A DNA stretch of 64,000 nt from a virus, in IMG/VR virus record IMGVR_UViG_3300025616_000004, positions 1-64,000 of that record; one strand, 5' to 3'. Shown here piece by piece: positions 2,361 to 63,472 of this stretch. How positions within the stretch are numbered: position 1 is the first letter of the stretch; every line of letters starts with the position of its first letter. The notes beneath the pieces are model-generated. The model had not been told where the DNA came from. It saw nothing but the letters and a program-made list of their open reading frames with translations, and made no database searches. The position numbers and the translations under genes are program-made.

Positions 2361-2398
2361 AGTATAGCATAAGGTAGACTCAGTTACAAGCCTACCTT
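2361..2398 (-). promoter_or_regulatory. Hairpin-embedded promoter, TTGTAA type
   Basis: Minus strand TTGTAA (2384-2389), 17 bp, TATACT (2361-2366). The -35 box straddles the 8-nt loop of an inverted repeat (AAGGTAGGCT / AGTCTACCTT, one mismatch, 2371-2398). The same layout recurs at 29898-29936 and 61068-61106 with different stem sequence but the same GACTTGTAA-type core. It drives the gene starting at 2327. Confidence 0.7.
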
Positions 2399-7459: not shown

Positions 7460-7494
7460 ATAGTAGCAGAGTATTAACTCATTGTCAATACTCT
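7460..7494 (-). promoter_or_regulatory. Promoter inside an 8-bp inverted repeat
   Basis: Minus strand TTGACA (7483-7488), 17 bp, TACTAT (7460-7465). The -35 box starts in one arm of the perfect repeat AGAGTATT/AATACTCT (7468-7475 and 7487-7494). It precedes the gene at 7425. Confidence 0.65.
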
Positions 7495-10133: not shown

Positions 10134-10169
10134 ATAATAGCATAAAAAAAGAGAGCCGTCAAGGCTCTC
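10134..10169 (-). promoter_or_regulatory. Overlapping intrinsic terminator and promoter
   Basis: Minus strand: stem GAGAGCC, loop TTGAC, stem GGCTCTC, then seven T, a complete intrinsic terminator for the upstream gene. The same bases give a promoter: TTGACG (10157-10162), 17 bp containing the T run, and TATTAT (10134-10139) with an extended TGC before it. The same construction occurs at 11084-11119. Confidence 0.75.
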
Positions 10170-11083: not shown

Positions 11084-11119
11084 AGAATAGCATAAAAAAA
11101 GAGAGTCGTCAAGACTCTC
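11084..11119 (-). promoter_or_regulatory. Overlapping intrinsic terminator and promoter
   Basis: Stem GAGAGTC, loop TTGAC, stem GACTCTC and seven T on the minus strand. Promoter reading: TTGACG (11107-11112), 17 bp, TATTCT (11084-11089). Stem bases differ from the copy at 10134-10169 in a compensated way (T-A instead of C-G), which supports selection for the hairpin. Ends the RELLK-tail gene at 11150 and starts the HNH gene. Confidence 0.75.
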
Positions 11120-12677: not shown

Positions 12678-12704
12678 GTTACCCTCCCCTCTTAGATAGT
12701 AAAG

Positions 12705-12772
12705 TATGCTTGGAGAGACTTGAACTCTCAACAGCCTCAGACAAGACCGTTCTACCGTTGAACTACAAGCAT
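12705..12772 (-). tRNA. tRNA-like gene with shortened anticodon/variable region
   Basis: Acceptor ATGCTTG/CAAGCAT, D arm GTTC/GAAC, T arm GAGAG-TTCAAGT-CTCTC are all intact. Between D and T arms only 19 nt remain, 3-4 fewer than normal, and no 5-bp stem with a 7-nt loop can be drawn. Possible stems are GGTCT/AGGCT (6-nt loop) or CGGTC/GGCTG (8-nt loop, GTC in the middle). Amino acid undetermined; probably a deletion derivative. Confidence 0.5.
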
Positions 12773-12785
12773 ACTTTATTAAACG

Positions 12786-12881
12786 CCACCCCATGGAGAA
12801 TCTCACTACCAAGTACAACACGAGTACTCTTGTCTCCACCTTCTGTTGATCAAACAGTTGTTCTGATTAAACTAATGGGGC
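12786..12881 (-). tRNA. Degenerate tRNA-like gene with insertion in the T arm
   Basis: Acceptor GCCCCAT/ATGGGGT pairs over 7 bp, D stem GTTT/GAAC with a 5-nt loop lacking GG, anticodon loop TTGATCA (GAT, Ile) on a stem with one mismatch. T stem GGAGA/TCTCC is separated by about 33 nt instead of 7 and lacks TTCRA. This is a tRNA broken by roughly 26 extra bases, or one carrying a tiny intron-like insert. Confidence 0.35.
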
Positions 12882-12920
12882 GAAGTACGTACATTGAGTT
12901 ATATACATACTGGTAAAAAT

Positions 12921-12992
12921 TAGAGGTGGGAGGGATCGAACCTCCGTTACACAGGTTCAAAACCTGTTGCCTTACCGCTTGGCTACACCTCT
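12921..12992 (-). tRNA. tRNA-Gln (anticodon TTG)
   Basis: Full cloverleaf: acceptor AGAGGTG/CACCTCT, GCCAAGCGGTAAGGC D arm typical of glutamine tRNAs, anticodon stem ACAGG/CCTGT with loop TTTTGAA, T arm GGAGG-TTCGATC-CCTCC, discriminator A. CCA is not encoded. Reads CAA/CAG codons. Confidence 0.93.
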
Positions 12993-13002
12993 ATGAAAAT
13001 AA

Positions 13003-13083
13003 TATGTGATAAGAGACTTGAACTCTTACGGGTTTCCCCACTAGCATCTAAAACTAGCATGTCTACCATTCCATCAATCACAT
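13003..13083 (-). tRNA. tRNA-Leu (anticodon TAG)
   Basis: Acceptor ATGTGAT/ATCACAT, D-loop with GGTAGAC, anticodon stem CTAGT/GCTAG and loop TTTAGAT giving TAG, a long variable arm (GGGGAAACCC) as in class II tRNAs, T arm AAGAG-TTCAAGT-CTCTT. 81 nt. CCA is not encoded. Confidence 0.9.
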
Positions 13084-13093
13084 ATGTAATAAC

Positions 13094-13164
13094 CACGCCA
13101 GCAGAGAATTGAACTCTGTCCAAAAGCTTTGGAGGCTCTTGTGCTCCCGTAACACTTCTGACGC
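13094..13164 (-). tRNA. tRNA-Trp (anticodon CCA)
   Basis: Acceptor GCGTCAG/CTGGCGT with two G-T pairs, D arm GTGT/GCAC, anticodon stem AGAGC/GCTTT with loop CTCCAAA, T arm CAGAG-TTCAATT-CTCTG, discriminator G as expected for Trp. Position 8 is A rather than T, an oddity. Confidence 0.9.
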
Positions 13165-13174
13165 ATAAAGTATT

Positions 13175-13246
13175 AAGGGAAGGTGAGACTCGAACTCACG
13201 ATGGAGAATTTGCAGTCCTCCGCCTTAACCACTTGGCTACTTCCCT
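13175..13246 (-). tRNA. tRNA-Cys (anticodon GCA)
   Basis: Acceptor AGGGAAG/CTTCCCT, D arm GCCAAGTGGTTAAGGC, anticodon stem GAGGA/TTCTC with loop CTGCAAA, T arm GTGAG-TTCGAGT-CTCAC. Discriminator T, the normal Cys identity base. Confidence 0.93.
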
Positions 13247-13258
13247 AGGTTAGTTAAA

Positions 13259-13332
13259 TGGGGTGGCTAACGAGATTTGAACTCGTACTATCAGTACCAC
13301 AAACTGAGGTGCTACCATTACACCATAGCCAC
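13259..13332 (-). tRNA. tRNA-His (anticodon GTG), with encoded CCA
   Basis: Acceptor GTGGCTA/TAGCCAC, D arm GTGT-AATGGTA-GCAC, anticodon stem TCAGT/ACTGA with loop TTGTGGT, T arm ACGAG-TTCAAAT-CTCGT, discriminator C followed by CCA in the DNA. The base before position 1 is T, so the extra G-1 that bacterial histidine tRNAs normally encode is missing. Confidence 0.9.
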
Positions 13333-13359
13333 AATAATGTCCCCATTTTATGTTAGTAT

Positions 13360-13430
13360 TTGCGAGAGGCAGAATCGAACTGCCAGCATAAGGGTATGAA
13401 CCTCATAAGTTACCGTTACTCTATCTCGCA
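13360..13430 (-). tRNA. tRNA with anticodon CAT (Met or Ile2)
   Basis: Acceptor TGCGAGA/TCTCGCA, anticodon stem TGAGG/CCTTA with loop TTCATAC, T arm GGCAG-TTCGATT-CTGCC, discriminator A. The 1-72 pair T-A and lack of GGG/CCC in the anticodon stem argue against the initiator. Whether it is elongator Met or a lysidine-modified Ile tRNA cannot be decided from sequence alone. Confidence 0.85.
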
Positions 13431-13447
13431 TTGTATTAGAAGAAAGA

Positions 13448-13520
13448 TATATAGAGTGGAAGTCGAATCCACACCGTTCCCGCTAATGGAGAACATTCTA
13501 TCCTGTTAAACTATCTATAT
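13448..13520 (-). tRNA. tRNA with noncanonical anticodon loop CATTAGC (TTA at 34-36)
   Basis: Every arm is regular: acceptor ATATAGA/TCTATAT, positions 8-9 TA, D stem GTTT/GAAT, anticodon stem TTCTC/GGGAA, T arm GTGGA-TTCGACT-TCCAC. The loop at 32-38 is CATTAGC, so position 33 is A instead of the near-universal T and positions 34-36 are TTA, which would pair with the stop codon TAA. Amino acid undetermined. Confidence 0.65.
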
Positions 13521-13534
13521 ACCTCTCCTCCGTT

Positions 13535-13548
13535 CTTATAATATAAAC
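13535..13548 (-). promoter_or_regulatory. Late-promoter-like motif between tRNA genes
   Basis: Minus strand TTTATATTATAAG, matching the motif found before several virion genes (see 48296-48314). In this position it would drive only the downstream tRNA genes. It may equally be chance in AT-rich spacer. Confidence 0.25.
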
Positions 13549-13566
13549 TAACTGCTTGTTTTAAAA

Positions 13567-13639
13567 AGCCCCCTGTCAGATTCGAACTGACGACATACCG
13601 CTTACAAGGCGGTTGCTCTACCAACTGAGCTAAAGGGGC
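13567..13639 (-). tRNA. tRNA-Thr (anticodon TGT)
   Basis: Acceptor GCCCCTT/AGGGGGC, D arm GCTC-AGTTGGTA-GAGC, anticodon stem ACCGC/GCGGT with loop CTTGTAA, T arm GTCAG-TTCGAAT-CTGAC, discriminator T. Very regular bacterial-type tRNA. Confidence 0.95.
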
Positions 13640-21757: not shown

Positions 21758-21806
21758 ATTGTAGCACATTCCTAATAAAAAGTCTAGCCCCTTAGCTAGA
21801 CTTTAT
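21758..21806 (-). terminator. Terminator hairpin overlapping a weak promoter
   Basis: Minus strand AAGTCTAGC-TAAGGG-GCTAGACTT followed by TTTTTATT: an intrinsic terminator for the small gene upstream. Seventeen bases beyond TAGACT (21781-21786) stands TACAAT (21758-21763) with TGC before it, so the same element probably starts transcription of the Rad50 N-half gene. Confidence 0.65.
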
Positions 21807-29897: not shown

Positions 29898-29936
29898 AGT
29901 ATAACAAAAGATAGACTCAATTACAAGTCTATCTTT
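29898..29936 (-). promoter_or_regulatory. Hairpin-embedded promoter, TTGTAA type
   Basis: Minus strand TTGTAA (29921-29926), 17 bp, TATACT (29898-29903). Perfect 11-bp inverted repeat AAAGATAGACT/AGTCTATCTTT (29907-29936) with an 8-nt loop that the -35 box straddles. Separates the GroES-like gene from the gene at 29863. Confidence 0.72.
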
Positions 29937-29959: not shown

Positions 29960-30277
29960 TTATTCTACATCTCTTATGATGGCTATGATGTTTCGCTCAG
30001 CTACTATCAATATTTTTTTTCTATTCATCTTTGTTGTAAGTCCTGTCATATTGTCTAACATGACTATATCTCCCACACTAACTTCAGTTTTTGTCCTCGT
30101 TCCGTTAGCTAATAAGGCACCTGCTCCAACACTTAAAACTTTAGCTCTAATGGTTATATCCTTCTTGTCTTCCTTAGGTATGAATAGACCTCCTGCTGAT
30201 TCTTCAAAACCTTTCAAGTCTTGATCAAGAATCTCTAAAATTATACGGTCTGCTAAAGGTATAAATTCTTCTGACAT
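29960..30277 (-). CDS. GroES-like co-chaperonin
   Basis: Hsp10 fold: FIPLADRIILEIL at the start, the mobile loop with ESAGGLFIPKED that contacts GroEL, KVLSVGAGALLANG, VSVGDIVMLDN and IIAIIRD at the end. 105 aa, slightly longer than GroES. Probably replaces host GroES for folding a phage protein such as the capsid, like T4 gp31. Confidence 0.88.
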   Translation of the reverse strand: MSEEFIPLADRIILEILDQDLKGFEESAGGLFIPKEDKKDITIRAKVLSVGAGALLANGTRTKTEVSVGDIVMLDNMTGLTTKMNRKKILIVAERNIIAIIRDVE

Positions 30278-32049: not shown

Positions 32050-35000
32050 TCAAGCTCTCTTAGGTATTAATTTCAATCTCTCAGATGTTTCCCACACAAA
32101 TCCAAACAGTTCTCCTAAATTGTTACCCAACTCTATACTACAATCTATGGGAATTGGAGATCCTTTAGGTTTATATATCATCTCATCTTCTAACATCCTA
32201 ACATCATCTATTATATTTTCTTTCTTAAAAGCTACATTCATTTCATCGTGAACTTCTGATATAAACCTTGCTCTATCTTTATAAACTGGGTTGCTAAATA
32301 CTTTTTTCTCCAAATTTATAGTTAGTCTACGGATTATTGAAGACCCAGAACCTTGAATTTGATGCGACGGGATACTACGACAACCAAAATTATACACTCC
32401 CTTCTCCTCTGAGCAAAGATATGATTTTACTCTCCTTGGTCGGCCAAACATATCCTTAACGGTGAAGTTATTTTCTTTGATTAAGTCTAAGTTAGTCTGT
32501 ATCCATGATTTTAAGATTGAGTTAGCTCTCCACCACTTATTAAATAATTCCTTAGACTCTTTCTCTGAAAGTATTAACCCCTGTGAAGCAGCTACAGCCC
32601 TTAATACATTCGGGCTTCCCCCGTATAACATCCCAAAGTTACAATTATGACTAACTATACAAGAACTTACGTACTCCCTGTGTGTAGTCTGAATTGCGTG
32701 TATTCTACCATTACCCATCTTTTTGGATATAACTTTTGAGGGTTGGTAATCTCCACTAATGTCAAGGATTATCCCTAGCGATTCTAATTCAGTTAGTACA
32801 TTTCTTGTAAGCCCGCATCCCTTTTTCTTAATGTTATAGATGTTATCTCTAATAGTCTTTGATGTTTTAGGAATAGAAAATACTTTACTATGTAAAATAT
32901 CAGCAAGTTTACTTGTACAATTCCAACTTATATTAGTGTACTTGGACTTAGTTACATTCTTGTAATCATTTGATAAATTTAGGTTAACGTCTCCTATTTC
33001 ATATAATACAAGAGTGTGAAAATCGAACGGAATTCCTTTGTACTTAGGTGTTTCTTTTATATACCTAGTTTTTATTCCTAATAAAGAACATGTTAGTGCA
33101 AAGTTATTTATGATATTCATGTTCTTATTCCCAAAGAATAATCTATTCCCTTTTCGGGTTCCATCTGAATCTAGTAGACCTGAAATAAAGTTAGTAAGAC
33201 ATCCAGAATCCCAGTGGGTGTATATCCAATCAGGTATCTTTTTAGATTCCTTCCTGCCAAAATTAATTTCAAACACTTCTGCTAGAGGTCTATTATTAAG
33301 TTTTAATATATTTAGTACTTTGTTCTTACCAACTTTGTAGGGAGTTAATTTTCCAAGTCCCAAGCTACTTAGGTAAGGTAATACTCTAGTTAATACTTTA
33401 TCCGAGCATCCTAAAGTAACTCCCACATAATGATCTTCTTTGTTACTATAGTCTATGCTCCCGTCCCCTAAATAGAGTCCAGCTATGTATGCAAATTCTG
33501 GAGTAGCCATATCTATTAAAGTATCCTTCATGTTCTTAAATTTTCTTTTATAGTACTCTTTAAGATTCACTATTTTTGATGTTCTACTGCCTTTATGTAT
33601 ATTTGTTCTAGTTAACACTTGATCTAAACCTGTTAAATCTCCCACTTTTTTCCAAGATGTCTTATCTCCATCCCATGTTAAGACAGGGTGATCTGTCTTG
33701 TACTCCTCAACTATGCCTGAATCATATAACACTTCAATAGTATCCGAAAAATCCTCTGCATAAATAAAATCCTGTTCTCTCTCAAACCTATCTATTATTT
33801 TATCCGTGCTTAATAATGAGTAAGGTCTAACCAAGCCTCTATTTGTTAAAACAAATGAGTTATCCCCCAAACAAACTTTTGCTGCTTTTCTCTTCTCTTT
33901 ATTATAGTTAGCTTCTCCAAATAACTTCTTAGCCATTTCTGTGTGAACATCTAAACCTAATCTGAAAGGTTCTATAAAATTAGGCTCTCCTGATAATATC
34001 CCTGCGATCTTTAACTCTTCCCCATTGTAATCTAATGAGGCAATAAGTTCAGTATCATCTTTAACTCTTATAGCTTTTCGTACATTGATCTCTGGGGAGA
34101 ATCCTTCTATAATATAAGCATCTTTATTATTAGTAATGAATTCTTTGACTTCATTACTTCCTGGTTTTCCTAATAGATCAAATCTATAACCTAAAATACC
34201 TTCTCTAAAATCATCAGATATTTTTACAGCATTATACATGGCTGGTTTGGGTTTGGTCAGATTTTGAATATTCAAATTGATAAAGTAATCATCCTCCAAT
34301 ACCTTAGACTTAGCTCCGCCTCCAGATGCAAGCCTTCCTGAGGCTGTGCCGAAGAGTTTATAGTTTACCCTACACATCCCTACATCTGGATTCTCATCGG
34401 ACACTGAGTTGGCATTGGCTAGTTTATGTATATAAGTGTTTAAAGCTTTCTCAAGACCGCTTAACTCTATAAGTTCTTTTGCTATGGGATGTTTATCTGA
34501 TATTGCAAGTAGGGAATCCTTGGAGGTACTCATCTTACCTCCATCAGTTTTTACTCCTGTATCTATCCCCATACTTTCTAACGCTTTTACTAGTTCGTTA
34601 GATTTTGAAGCTATGTTAAAAGGGTATCCTACCGCCTTGTAGATAGACATCTCAAGATCTTTTTTTCTTCTTAAAATCTCTTCCTCATATTCTCTCATTA
34701 TCTTCTTATCGATATAAATAGGAACTGAGGTATAGTAATTTATAAAAGACTTAACTAAAGCATTGTCCATTTTAAGAATGCTTTCACATCCTTCTGCTCT
34801 AAGCATAGGATACAATTTTTTAAACAGTCCGTAAGTATTTATTGCATCCGAACATGCATACTCAAAGCAATCTGTTGGGTTTATATATTGAAAAGTTTTA
34901 GACTTTCCTAATACCTCTTTGAACTTCTGGGCTCTTCTGCCTAGGAAGAGTTCAGAAGCAGGTTTCAGACCAAATTGACCTGAGGCGTTAGTATCTGAAT

Positions 35001-50486: not shown

Positions 50487-52334
50487 CTAAATATCCATTT
50501 CGAATTTCCAATTACCACTATTATGTATTGAATAGATACTATTTTCTTCCAATATCTGATCTGCTGTTTTGGTATCTGAATATGACTTTGGAAACATTTT
50601 TTTAAGTTTATGTTTCTGATATTTCTCTCTACTAACTACTTCCCTACGTTCATTGTAATATTTTAATTGAACTCCAGTATCCCCTATAAATCTAAAACCA
50701 TTTTTAAAATATACTGAATCTTTATAATTAGGTGTCCAGTCTCGATCACAATACGTTATTATTTTAGTATAACCTTGCATTTTATATTCATGGATACTAC
50801 TTTTTAATAATCTTGAAAATCCTCCTACACATGATGAGTTTAAGAGTGTGGCGAACCTAGCTATCTCAATGATTTCCCTACACTTCCTGAAAGATATACA
50901 ACTTACTAATTTAGAACCCTCGTATAATCCTAAAGCCAAGTTACTACTTACATCCCCGTGAAGATGATTATTGTTAAAGAAGTCTCTACGTTCTCTAATG
51001 CTTACTTCTTTAACTTTAAGTTTACGAGCATGATACCTACACTCACATCTCCCCAATGTTGATCTGATCATGCTCTTTATTATATCTTCGTTGTCATGTT
51101 CCCATATATGATATAACTTAATCTCTTTCGCTAGTGAAGACTCCGTTTTTACTTTGTGGTAAGAGCTAGATACCTTAAACTTAGAACTATGGTAGTAACT
51201 CCCGTTATACTCAAATCCAATGCCCAACTTAGGTATTAAAATATCTATCTCTAGGGGATATATAGTCCCCCTATCATTAACTACAGTGTCAATATTTAAA
51301 GAATTTATAAATTCTTGTATTTTACTCTGAGATTCTCCCCTCATCTGAGGAAAACATATTGGACATTTTATATCAGCTTTCATGGCACTTTTAAAAACAG
51401 AACCACATACCCTATGCTTTACGCTATATTTAACCCATTTTAGTTTATTACCTACGTTGTAGAATACGCCTTTATAGCTATCTAATAACGTGTACTCGGA
51501 TTCCTTCGAATTAAATCTATTTTTAATACTCTCTAATACGGACTCTTTCTTAAATTTTCTTACTTTACTGGCTATCTTAGAAGATTGCATAGCGTATGGA
51601 TATCCATATTTAAATATATTTGTACTTCTCAATTTACTCATGGATTCTTCTGTTTGGAGAGCATGAATACAGCCATATTTCTCTAAATTAGTTTTTCTTA
51701 TCCTACTTTTTATCAATTCGGATTGGGTAGCTGATGAAAATCCATACTTATCTAGATTAGTTTTCTTTATTTTATTCTTAATATCTTCTGATTGGAACGG
51801 GTTGATTACTCCGTACCTTTCTAAATTAGTAGACTCTTTTTTAGCTACAGATTCTTTAGACTGAACAGCATACTCAACCCCATATTTATGAATGCAAGTA
51901 GCCTTTATCTTATCTTTGACTTTTTCAGATTTGGTAGCTGATGAAAATCCATACCTTTCGAGATTAGTATCCTTTATTTTGTCTCTAATCTCTTCGGCTT
52001 GTGAGGCATAGTCGGTTCCATATTTCTCTCTATTGGTAGTTATGCCTTTATCTTTAATCTCTTTAGATTGTAACACATATGGAACTCCATATTTAAGTAT
52101 ATTTGTTTTTACTCTCTGTTCTTTACTCTCTTCTGCGTTTCTTAAGGAAAACCCAAATTTTAAGAAATACTTTTTAAAAGTTCCCTCACTAATGCCCAGT
52201 AACCCTTCCAATACCTTTAATGATTTTCCATCTAAGTATTCTAGATATGCAGGTTTCCAACATTCTATACTATCTTTGAGATAAATAAGACCTGTCTTTG
52301 ATATTATAAAGTTAGTTCCAGTTTTCTTCAACAT
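50487..52334 (-). CDS. Repeat-containing homing endonuclease (PD-(D/E)XK type, 615 aa)
   Basis: Residues 75-275 hold eight repeats of about 23 aa around TNLEKYG...A.QSE, presumably DNA-binding. After residue 330, PLEIDILIPKLGIGFEYNGS is the EDxHD/Vsr-like PD-(D/E)XK core, with YHIWEHDNEDI. The C-terminal part (NHLHGDVSSNLALGLYEGSK, GGFSRLLKSSIHEY) looks like a GNAT-type accessory domain. Start at ATG 52334 after ATGGAGAATT. Inserted between two baseplate genes, with its own promoter. Confidence 0.82.
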   Translation of the reverse strand: MLKKTGTNFIISKTGLIYLKDSIECWKPAYLEYLDGKSLKVLEGLLGISEGTFKKYFLKFGFSLRNAEESKEQRVKTNILKYGVPYVLQSKEIKDKGITTNREKYGTDYASQAEEIRDKIKDTNLERYGFSSATKSEKVKDKIKATCIHKYGVEYAVQSKESVAKKESTNLERYGVINPFQSEDIKNKIKKTNLDKYGFSSATQSELIKSRIRKTNLEKYGCIHALQTEESMSKLRSTNIFKYGYPYAMQSSKIASKVRKFKKESVLESIKNRFNSKESEYTLLDSYKGVFYNVGNKLKWVKYSVKHRVCGSVFKSAMKADIKCPICFPQMRGESQSKIQEFINSLNIDTVVNDRGTIYPLEIDILIPKLGIGFEYNGSYYHSSKFKVSSSYHKVKTESSLAKEIKLYHIWEHDNEDIIKSMIRSTLGRCECRYHARKLKVKEVSIRERRDFFNNNHLHGDVSSNLALGLYEGSKLVSCISFRKCREIIEIARFATLLNSSCVGGFSRLLKSSIHEYKMQGYTKIITYCDRDWTPNYKDSVYFKNGFRFIGDTGVQLKYYNERREVVSREKYQKHKLKKMFPKSYSDTKTADQILEENSIYSIHNSGNWKFEMDI

Positions 52335-52360
52335 AATTCTCCATACTATTAATAATACAT

Positions 52361-52389
52361 AGTATAACATACTAATAAAGAAAAGTCAA
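52361..52389 (-). promoter_or_regulatory. Sigma-70-type promoter of the homing endonuclease gene
   Basis: Minus strand TTGACT (52384-52389), 17 bp, TATACT (52361-52366) with TGT before the -10 box. An early-type promoter inside the late structural block, as expected for an inserted gene. Confidence 0.8.
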
Positions 52390-60431: not shown

Positions 60432-60480
60432 CTAAATATAATATAAAATATCCTATACTCGTTAATAAGCACAGGATATT
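60432..60480 (-). promoter_or_regulatory. Hairpin plus candidate late promoter motif
   Basis: Minus strand AATATCCT/AGGATATT arms (60447-60480, 18-nt loop) end in TTTTATATTATATTTAG (60432-60448). The hairpin may terminate the membrane-protein transcript, and the AT motif resembles those before other virion genes and would restart late transcription at 60406. Confidence 0.45.
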
Positions 60481-61067: not shown

Positions 61068-61106
61068 ACTATACCAAGAGACAGACTCTTTTACAAGTCT
61101 GTCTCT
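61068..61106 (-). promoter_or_regulatory. Hairpin-embedded promoter, TTGTAA type
   Basis: Minus strand TTGTAA (61091-61096), 17 bp, TATAGT (61068-61073). Perfect 11-bp inverted repeat AGAGACAGACT/AGTCTGTCTCT (61077-61106) with the -35 box straddling the 8-nt loop. Same core as at 2361 and 29898. Drives the membrane protein gene starting at 61037. Confidence 0.72.
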
Positions 61107-61146: not shown

Positions 61147-61659
61147 TTAATCAAAATAATCAAATCTCAAAGTAATTTCTGGTTTGATAGTCTCATTCGC
61201 ACTACCATCTGGGTTTCCTATCGTGTGAGTCTGCATCCAACAATTCACAAGGTTGTATGAAGCCAGATTACCTCCGTCAGCCTTTAACGGGGAAAGTTGT
61301 ATCTGGCATACGTAATCTTTCTTAGCTTTTTGACCTTCTTCGTTGGGAGTATTTATGAGAGCTGCCCAAGCTTTTATAAACTTCTGTATAATTGCACTAT
61401 TATTTTCTATAAAAGTTATAGTTATTGGATCATACGTTCTCATGCCAGCTTGATAGACCTTCTTACCATGCATTGTGGTCTCTATCTCTTCTTCGGAAAA
61501 TTTAGGGTATTCCGAGGAGAGGGCGTATAGATTTAAAAGCCCTCCTAGATACTTATCCAGTCCTGCTGGCACCTTAGAGAATACAATTTTCCACTTGTAT
61601 AGAACTGCGAAATCCTGTATTCCTACTACATCTGTAATACTTGGTCTGATATCAGACAT
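61147..61659 (-). CDS. Tail tube protein (gp19-like, 170 aa)
   Basis: Directly follows the sheath gene. VLYKWKIVFSKVPAGLD, MHGKKVYQAGMRTYDPITITF, a helix FIKAWAALINTP and VNCWMQTHTIGN, PEITLRFDYFD give the beta-barrel with one helix of tube proteins. 170 aa is close to T4 gp19. Polymerises inside the sheath. Confidence 0.88.
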   Translation of the reverse strand: MSDIRPSITDVVGIQDFAVLYKWKIVFSKVPAGLDKYLGGLLNLYALSSEYPKFSEEEIETTMHGKKVYQAGMRTYDPITITFIENNSAIIQKFIKAWAALINTPNEEGQKAKKDYVCQIQLSPLKADGGNLASYNLVNCWMQTHTIGNPDGSANETIKPEITLRFDYFD

Positions 61660-61681: not shown

Positions 61682-63472
61682 CTAAGTTGTAATCGTAAAT
61701 CCAGTTCTTGTTATAATGACGGATAAGGTTATAAATTCAGATGTTTTTGTGGGTTGTACATACAAGAATACATTTAATTTATTATTATCTATATCCTCAG
61801 CCGTATTATTACTCTCGTCACATACCACAGTATAAGCATAGACTCCTTTTCTAGATTTTATACCATCCATGTAAGACTCTATTCCAGATCTGACAAGAAG
61901 TCTTGTCAGAGTATCATTAAACTCGAATAGGAAATCTTCTAGGAATACAGAAACTGCTGGTTCTACCGTGACAAGCATTAGTCTTACATTCAATCTATCT
62001 AATGCAGAAGGTCTAGATGATAATGTTTTCTGACCCCATATTGCAATACCCCTTCCATGTAGGAATTTAATTGGGTTTATTCCATTATCATATAATAAGT
62101 CAAGTTCTCCCTCTGAGAATCTTCTTTTTACGTCTAGTACGTTAAGCATGCCTCTTCTAGTACCTGCTGGAGCATACCATATTTCGTAATTAGAAGCCGT
62201 TTCTGCTATAGCTGCTGCTGCATATCCGTCTGGAGATACGAATATTTTTCTTGAATTAAACCTATCCTGTATCTGAAGATTTGGAGTATATAAAGCTGAA
62301 TAAGAACTATTTAAGTTTAAATCAGTCTTTCTATATGCCACTATATCTGTCATATAAGTAGAACTATTTTCTGCTGAATACGGAGTGGATAAACATGATA
62401 CACAATCTTTTCTACTTTGACATAGAGCATCCATAGCCCTTTGATAAGCTACTGTAGTCCAGCCCCCGTCCATTATAATAGTTAGAGGTATTTCATTTTT
62501 ATTTTGTAGTTTAGATAGTGCTGTTTGCATATGACTATCTGATATCGTTCCACCATCCAAAGCTCCTAGTAGAGATAATGGAGTTGTTTGTTCAATTAAT
62601 GCTGTATCAGAAGGCACGTCTACGTTATCAATAATGTTAATATAGTTAGAAGAAGTTACTATATCCTCTACGTAAATATTTTGACCGTAGCCGTCTTTAG
62701 CCCCAACTACTCTTGAACAAATAAATGTTTCTAGTAAGTCACCTGTTGATTTTTTAAGTACATTTATTTGGAAAGCTCCTTCTTCTTTTACGATGTCTGG
62801 GCTTACTGCATAGGTAAATAGGGTTATCTGAATGTCATTAGCCCATGAACCTTGGTTAGATCCTGTTATCAATAACGCATCTGTAACCTCAAATTCATAA
62901 TTAGTGGGAGTGACTATTGAATTCCTATTAACATGTCCATCTACAGTATCATCCAGTACTTCTTCATTAACTATTATGTCTGTATTTGGGGTATTAAAAG
63001 TAGCACTTGCCACAGTGTACACACCGTCGTTTGCAGTAGATCCTTCTATTTTTATAGAATCCCCTATTTTAAATTTTGCAGAAACGTCTCCCGCAATCGA
63101 GAAAAATCCAGTACCTGCTCCTGTATTTACGTATGAAATATTCCCCAGATTTACAGATGTTAGACTCGTATTAGAAACTGTTCCCATGATAGCTCCACCA
63201 TAGGTAGAACCATTGTCAGCTCTAACTACCCATAACTTATTTGTCTTAGATAGATAAGCCAATGCTGAATAGAATGCCATGTCATACCCTACTTCGACCC
63301 TCTCATTAGGAGTAAGATACTTTAGTAAATCAGTATCTGATGTCATGAAGAGAGGCTTACCTACTTCTCCTTTAGGAGAACGGACTACAATGCCTCCGTA
63401 AACATCTCCCGCAGAAGACGGAACTCTTGTGGATATATCTATTTCTTTTGTAAAAATGTTTGGAGCTGTCAT
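61682..63472 (-). CDS. Contractile tail sheath protein (596 aa)
   Basis: NIFTKEIDISTRVPSSAGDVYGG and GIVVRSPKG at the start, LWVVRADNGSTYGG, then the conserved C-terminal half (NYEIWYAPAGTRRGMLNVLD, IWGQKTLSSRPSALDRLNVRLML, VIITRTGF). Residues 120-183 are an inserted domain (GSTANDGVYTV) also present in wedge and fibre. Contracts to drive the tube through the cell envelope; defines the phage as a myovirus. Confidence 0.95.
   Translation of the reverse strand: MTAPNIFTKEIDISTRVPSSAGDVYGGIVVRSPKGEVGKPLFMTSDTDLLKYLTPNERVEVGYDMAFYSALAYLSKTNKLWVVRADNGSTYGGAIMGTVSNTSLTSVNLGNISYVNTGAGTGFFSIAGDVSAKFKIGDSIKIEGSTANDGVYTVASATFNTPNTDIIVNEEVLDDTVDGHVNRNSIVTPTNYEFEVTDALLITGSNQGSWANDIQITLFTYAVSPDIVKEEGAFQINVLKKSTGDLLETFICSRVVGAKDGYGQNIYVEDIVTSSNYINIIDNVDVPSDTALIEQTTPLSLLGALDGGTISDSHMQTALSKLQNKNEIPLTIIMDGGWTTVAYQRAMDALCQSRKDCVSCLSTPYSAENSSTYMTDIVAYRKTDLNLNSSYSALYTPNLQIQDRFNSRKIFVSPDGYAAAAIAETASNYEIWYAPAGTRRGMLNVLDVKRRFSEGELDLLYDNGINPIKFLHGRGIAIWGQKTLSSRPSALDRLNVRLMLVTVEPAVSVFLEDFLFEFNDTLTRLLVRSGIESYMDGIKSRKGVYAYTVVCDESNNTAEDIDNNKLNVFLYVQPTKTSEFITLSVIITRTGFTITT

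Follow-up and report, generated by a model that had tools for sequence, protein, structure and literature searches.

The window analysed here, 64,000 nt of phage DNA, is part of a 97,230-base IMG/VR virus record. This record matches a longer one of 170,200 bases (G001) at 99.98% over its full length in reversed orientation, and a window position x converts to approximately 100,800 - x in G001. The phage is contractile-tailed, with a tail sheath gene (phrog_23; window 61682-63472) whose best relatives, in Rhizobium and Vibrio phages, are less than 50% identical; a tail tube gene lies at 61147-61659 and a GroES-like gene at 29960-30277. A phage collection searched by DNA contained zero close relatives. 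Two related phage genomes, G011 (190,151 bases; 65-84% identity to G001 over the pieces that align) and G013 (158,517 bases; 87% identical to G011), were included. No phage sigma factor was found in G001 or G011, as judged by the Pfam sigma70 r2 and r4 domains, and an Rfam scan of the window returned tRNAs only. Nine tRNA-like genes are clustered at 12704-13639, and one of them (13446-13521), read by ARAGORN as a stop tRNA with anticodon tta, is absent from Rfam's list. A large homing-endonuclease-like gene (phrog_3339; 50487-52370) has its own strong promoter near 52366. The motif TATATTATATTTAG, found at 2919, 32855, 40354 and 169260 of G001 and near 60445 of the window (minus strand), often stands directly after terminators and before structural genes; it occurs on the gene strand only (4/0 in G001, 7/0 in G011 and 7/0 in G013) and is a candidate late promoter.

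Three elements of one design lie on the minus strand, which is the strand of the surrounding genes, each of them between two minus-strand genes. E1 (2361-2398) consists of a 10-bp stem-loop (2398-2371), a -35 box TTGTAA (2389-2384) that straddles the border of stem and loop, and an extended -10 box TATACT (2366-2361). E2 (29898-29936) has an 11-bp stem-loop (29936-29907), the -35 box TTGTAA at 29926-29921 and the -10 box TATACT at 29903-29898, and E3 (61068-61106) has an 11-bp stem-loop (61106-61077), TTGTAA at 61096-61091 and TATAGT at 61073-61068. Their loops, each of 8 nt, are TGTAACTG, TGTAATTG and TGTAAAAG, respectively, and the spacer is 17 nt and the -10 box TG-extended in all three. 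Stems, loops, boxes and spacers were all re-read at the coordinates given for them in an earlier note, which had described inverted repeats of 10-11 bp. The lengths of 10, 11 and 11 stand, with the correction that one of the ten pairs of E1, which reads GGCTTGTAA, is G-T, a wobble in gene-strand RNA and not a DNA base pair. E1 begins 15 nt past the stop codon of ORF 2749-2414, between two unknown small genes, and is the candidate promoter of the ORF starting at 2327. E2 begins 23 nt past the stop of the GroES-like gene and E3 40 nt past that of the tail tube gene, and they are candidate promoters of ORFs 29863-29648 and 61037-60462, respectively.

A search of the 97,230-base record with a 14-base core at up to one mismatch hit E1, E2 and E3 only (three matches vs one for a reversed control pattern). 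A 16-base core likewise picked out exactly these three in the window with 0-1 mismatch. At up to three mismatches it was not enriched there (8 matches, shuffled mean 6.6; 33 of 100 shuffles reached 8), and the core alone was dropped as a family finder because it performs at chance level at that setting. Among eleven viral-contig stretches with the core plus a -10 box, those in L006, L008, L015 and L016 represent a single recurring sequence that lacks a hairpin; they were set aside as unrelated.

Strong evidence for selection on pairing, with the sequence itself drifting, comes from ten TTGTAA or TTGAAA elements with an 8-nt TGWAA loop (seven from G001, three from G011), aligned without gaps. 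In this set 98% of cells are paired, and the covariation of 0.558, compared with 0.259 for shuffled sets, was reached in 0 of 500 shuffles and collapses when the register is slid. Six of the ten pairs change on both sides, and 93 of 100 pairs are Watson-Crick (arm-swapped mean 71.9, maximum 87 in 10,000), the remainder being five G-T with the G in the 5' arm, two other mismatches and no A-C. The outer bases covary, and the inner core ACTTG..AG is almost invariant. Furthermore, among 28 CTTGWAANNNAG cores in G001, G011 and G013, some of those in the latter two being orthologues, the stem has 8-13 pairs in the 14 that precede an extended -10 box at the right distance and at most six in the remaining 14. 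The claim that the stem bases vary while staying paired, and that the palindrome is selected, is therefore well supported by covariation, together with the stem enrichment described below. The direction of the wobble pairs was considered as proof of a gene-strand RNA and rejected: the bias of 5 to 0 is confined to the fixed-register set of ten and, since neutral scoring of 35 elements gave only 15 G-U to 10 A-C, it lends little weight to RNA.

The TTGTAA promoters described in the earlier note do form a family, but one that was drawn too narrowly, since TTGACG, TTGACC, TTGACT, TTGACA and TTGAAA boxes are also found in such stems. Scanning the gene strand of G001 for consensus promoters yielded 53 candidates. 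Of these, 16 carry a stem on the -35 box at a score of at least 18, and the other 37 have no such stem; when the upstream 30 bases and the spacer were shuffled, the count averaged 1.0 and never exceeded 4 in 60 rounds. All 16 lie in non-coding sequence according to an ORF mask. On the other strand one of 15 candidates has a stem on the -35, and it is inside coding sequence. At a score of 20 the design is present in 13/53 promoters vs 5.3% of random intergenic positions, a control that may itself include elements, and 1.0% of all positions. The start of the loop peaks on the -35 box, with 15 of the 53 at offset 0, 8 at +5 and 0-3 at most other offsets. The -35 stem design is thus far above chance in G001. 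The corresponding counts are 6/71 in G011 (shuffled mean 1.27, maximum 4) and 7/75 in G013 (shuffled mean 1.38, maximum 5).

We list 17 members in G001, namely the 16 scan hits and a looser member at 79035 (window 21804-21758); a decayed-looking copy at 104085 was excluded. The members have -10 and -35 hexamers about 17 nt apart, as in sigma70 promoters, and 11 of the 17 fall within a region of small ORFs that spans 89.7-130.9 kb of G001. Besides E1-E3, five members lie on the minus strand of the window. At 549-591 a 12-bp stem-loop (591-558) holds the -35 box TTGACC (577-572) in its loop and precedes TATTAT (554-549), and at 7460-7494 an 11-pair stem-loop (7494-7468) holds TTGACA (7488-7483) in its 5' arm and precedes TACTAT (7465-7460); neither has a U-run. 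The elements at 10134-10169 (GAGAGCC[TTGAC]GGCTCTC then T7; -35 TTGACG 10162-10157, -10 TATTAT 10139-10134) and 11084-11119 (GAGAGTC[TTGAC]GACTCTC then T7; -35 TTGACG 11112-11107, -10 TATTCT 11089-11084) have the form of canonical terminators, and the latter has a 113-bp near-duplicate elsewhere in G001 (94.7%). In the looser member (21758-21804) the 3' arm of a terminator-like stem (21804-21779) holds a -35-like TAGACT (21786-21781), followed by an extended -10 box TACAAT (21763-21758). An unfused form is also present at 42692-42533, where each of two terminators has a strong promoter behind it as a distinct signal (42628 and 42533). At 145962-145999 of G001 (L040:5962-5999) a 14-bp stem holds a -10 box in its loop.

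With ORFs picked automatically, 16 of the 17 members start 15-40 nt past the upstream stop codon, the remaining one at 178 nt, and all 17 have the chosen start codon 38-60 nt downstream, usually with a purine-rich ribosome site. The boundary between a stop and the next start is where a terminator and a next-gene promoter are both wanted. In three of the G001 copies, which have the form of textbook terminators, a T7 run falls within the spacer; in the TTGACG copies the stem is followed by T7 and the T-run is the spacer. The U-rich tail exceeds the 95th percentile of random positions (3.94) in 8/17 members, including E2, and termination by such strong-tail copies is likely, judging from their sequence. 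The tails of E1 (3.48) and E3 (3.33) lie above the 75th and below the 90th percentile; four members of the class score near 3. Since the tails of E1 and E3 are below the 95th percentile, for these and the other weak-tail copies we infer termination that is possibly partial.

We consider it fairly probable that the elements are compact boundary cassettes, in which an RNA hairpin for incoming transcripts is combined with the promoter of the next gene. As DNA, each would be a sigma70-type promoter, with a poor to good -35 box, a 17-nt spacer and an extended -10 box, for the gene 38-60 nt downstream. As RNA transcribed from the upstream gene, the same bases would fold into a stem-loop soon after the stop codon, serving to terminate transcription or to mark the 3' end, so that the hairpin probably ends the message of the previous gene. 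The -35 box would sit in the loop or in the upper part of the stem, with the spacer taken up by the 3' arm plus the U-run where present, and about 40 bp would thereby pack both signals into one gene boundary. The position of the elements, the stems enriched at the -35, the covariation, the gene context and the canonical tails of some copies can be read from the DNA itself; from sequence we infer that transcription starts at the elements and that transcripts arriving from upstream are stopped or trimmed at the hairpin. Of the two options offered earlier for the palindrome, the better fit is a hairpin in the RNA transcribed from upstream, and a dimeric regulator site is disfavoured for the reasons given below.

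The main rival to termination is nuclease processing, in which the hairpin would be cut, for example by RNase III, or would shield the upstream 3' end, with the promoter restarting transcription. The gene context and covariation are equally expected on this account, and it suits copies without a strong U-run (591-558, 7494-7468, E1 and E3). However, several copies are canonical terminators and 8/17 have U-rich tails, and the stems of the class are short for RNase III; we therefore regard processing or protection as rather unlikely to be the main role.

The gap behind the tail tube gene allows the same boundary to be compared between relatives. Six G011-type loci (L068-L072 and L075, with two distinct stems) keep the design with a different stem, AAAGRGGGTTG[ACAR]CAACCCTCTTT ahead of TATACT, in which all the stem bases of importance are unlike those of E3; L068 and L069 have G-U at one pair where the other four have A-U. 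In the more distant L024, L078 and L091 (the last two alike, giving two distinct sequences) the gap holds a plain hairpin, and in L020, L023, L073, L074, L076 and L077 it holds neither the fused design nor a plain hairpin; in L018 the tube gene was not found. In G011 the counterpart gaps keep the design for E3 and for 79035, where a terminator with an extended -10 box is retained. The G011 counterparts of E2, 30305, 130872 and 157182 are without the design, which was either lost or never there. The layout has therefore persisted at some boundaries and undergone turnover at others.

These comparisons bear on the possibility that the palindrome over the -35 box is an operator, bound by a dimeric phage or host protein that represses or activates. 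The -35, which the palindrome overlaps, is where repressors and activators like T4 MotA bind, and the near-invariant inner core ACTTG..AG of the ten TTGTAA/TTGAAA elements goes beyond what a -35 box needs. Against this, the outer pairs covary across both arms, the other class members in the same phage share no stem core with E1-E3, the tail tube gap of relatives has an entirely different stem and -35 variant with the layout unchanged, and CTTGWAANNNAG cores without a promoter also lack the outer stem. A common half-site is confined to the inner four pairs of the TTGTAA/TTGAAA subset and does not extend to the class. Since stem bases covary, no stem sequence is shared and the tail tube gap stem is replaced, an operator is disfavoured for the class and we think it unlikely, although the inner core of that subset could still act as one.

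It is very unlikely that the promoter-hairpin repeats are kept mainly because they favour the reshuffling of early genes, the role proposed for the PeSL cassettes discussed below: 11 of the 17 members do lie in the small-ORF stretch at 89.7-130.9 kb and one has the 113-bp near-duplicate, but the stems are not alike in sequence from copy to copy, a feature unfavourable to recombination, and other members stand between conserved genes, such as E3 after the tail tube gene. Least credible of all is regulation of the promoter by a cruciform or folded single-stranded DNA, which would explain why pairing rather than sequence is conserved but leaves the U-run tails and the position after stop codons unexplained; short stems with 8-nt loops also make poor cruciforms.

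If the elements are boundary cassettes, then since the 3' arm of the terminator and the release point lie inside the promoter, a terminating polymerase would be released on top of the next promoter. Post-termination recycling on DNA has been shown in vitro with E. coli polymerase (PMC6978380). It is conceivable, but decidedly doubtful, that polymerase released here restarts at once after sigma binding; such a self-recycling stop-and-go station would pass polymerase on to the next gene at each boundary without merging the messages. The elements are natural templates for asking whether polymerase, once it has terminated, starts again from the promoter on which it was released, and they offer compact insulating parts.

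The nearest described kind is the PeSL (promoter-early stem-loop) cassette of the T4-type phages RB49 and phi1 (Arbiol 2010; Comeau 2014). As described in papers that cite it, a PeSL is an intergenic sigma70-type promoter fused with a stem-loop, and the combination of a sigma70-like promoter and a stem-loop in one intergenic unit is seen here too. PeSL stem-loops are reported to be effective terminators. As with PeSLs, there are many copies per genome, with sequence-variable stems, in regions of small early genes; in G001 there are 17 copies, 11 of them in the small-gene stretch, where plasticity is judged from the few G011 homologues. Two 50-kb parts of RB49 (L064 and L065) were scanned directly. 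For 72 minus-strand promoter candidates the best stem is in the spacer in 9, on the -10 box in 7 and upstream in 5, and only one gap on that strand has a stem overlapping the -35. On both strands together 4/75 reach a score of 18 at the -35 (shuffled mean 0.85, maximum 3); by annotation three of the four fall within genes, and the fourth is at an early promoter. In contrast to the spacer or -10 stems of RB49, the stem here is centred on the -35 box, the use of register as a family criterion being our own judgement. The stems that fill RB49 spacers, such as AGGGGATC[GGT]GATCCCCT, vary as pairs between promoters and would lend themselves to covariation analysis, and the -10-centred stems of RB49 resemble the G001 stem at 145962-145999. 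PeSL phages are T4-type; the contractile tail shown by the sheath gene does not by itself make the present phage T4-like.

Related arrangements occur elsewhere. In Staphylococcus phage K the stem-loop of an annotated terminator (32909-32928) contains TTGACA, with a T-run in the spacer and an extended -10 box TATAGT. Over 50 kb of that genome 4/37 promoter candidates have a -35 stem, one of them at the annotated terminator, and these are suggestive only, because four is also the shuffled maximum (mean 0.87). T5, SPO1 and Kayvirus 515A1 have a terminator directly upstream of a promoter, as in 515A1, where the early promoter p98 is described as coming right after terminator t97, and the T5 annotation has some that overlap. 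Unlike here, the parts of the T5 and SPO1 genomes scanned have no stem on the -35 (0/20 promoter candidates each), and part of phiLo gave 0/6. The haloarchaeal virus HGTV-1 has a repeated TATA-like box with an inverted repeat before many ORFs, which has been likened to PeSLs; as described, that motif is of the archaeal promoter type, unlike the elements here. No description of a -35-centred fused element was found in a literature search that covered few subscription papers and neither PeSL paper. From the counts per phage among those examined, the -35 register is not unique to the G001 clade, yet it is by far most frequent there. The elements carry the idea of a fused promoter and hairpin, in a new register, apparently outside the T4 group.
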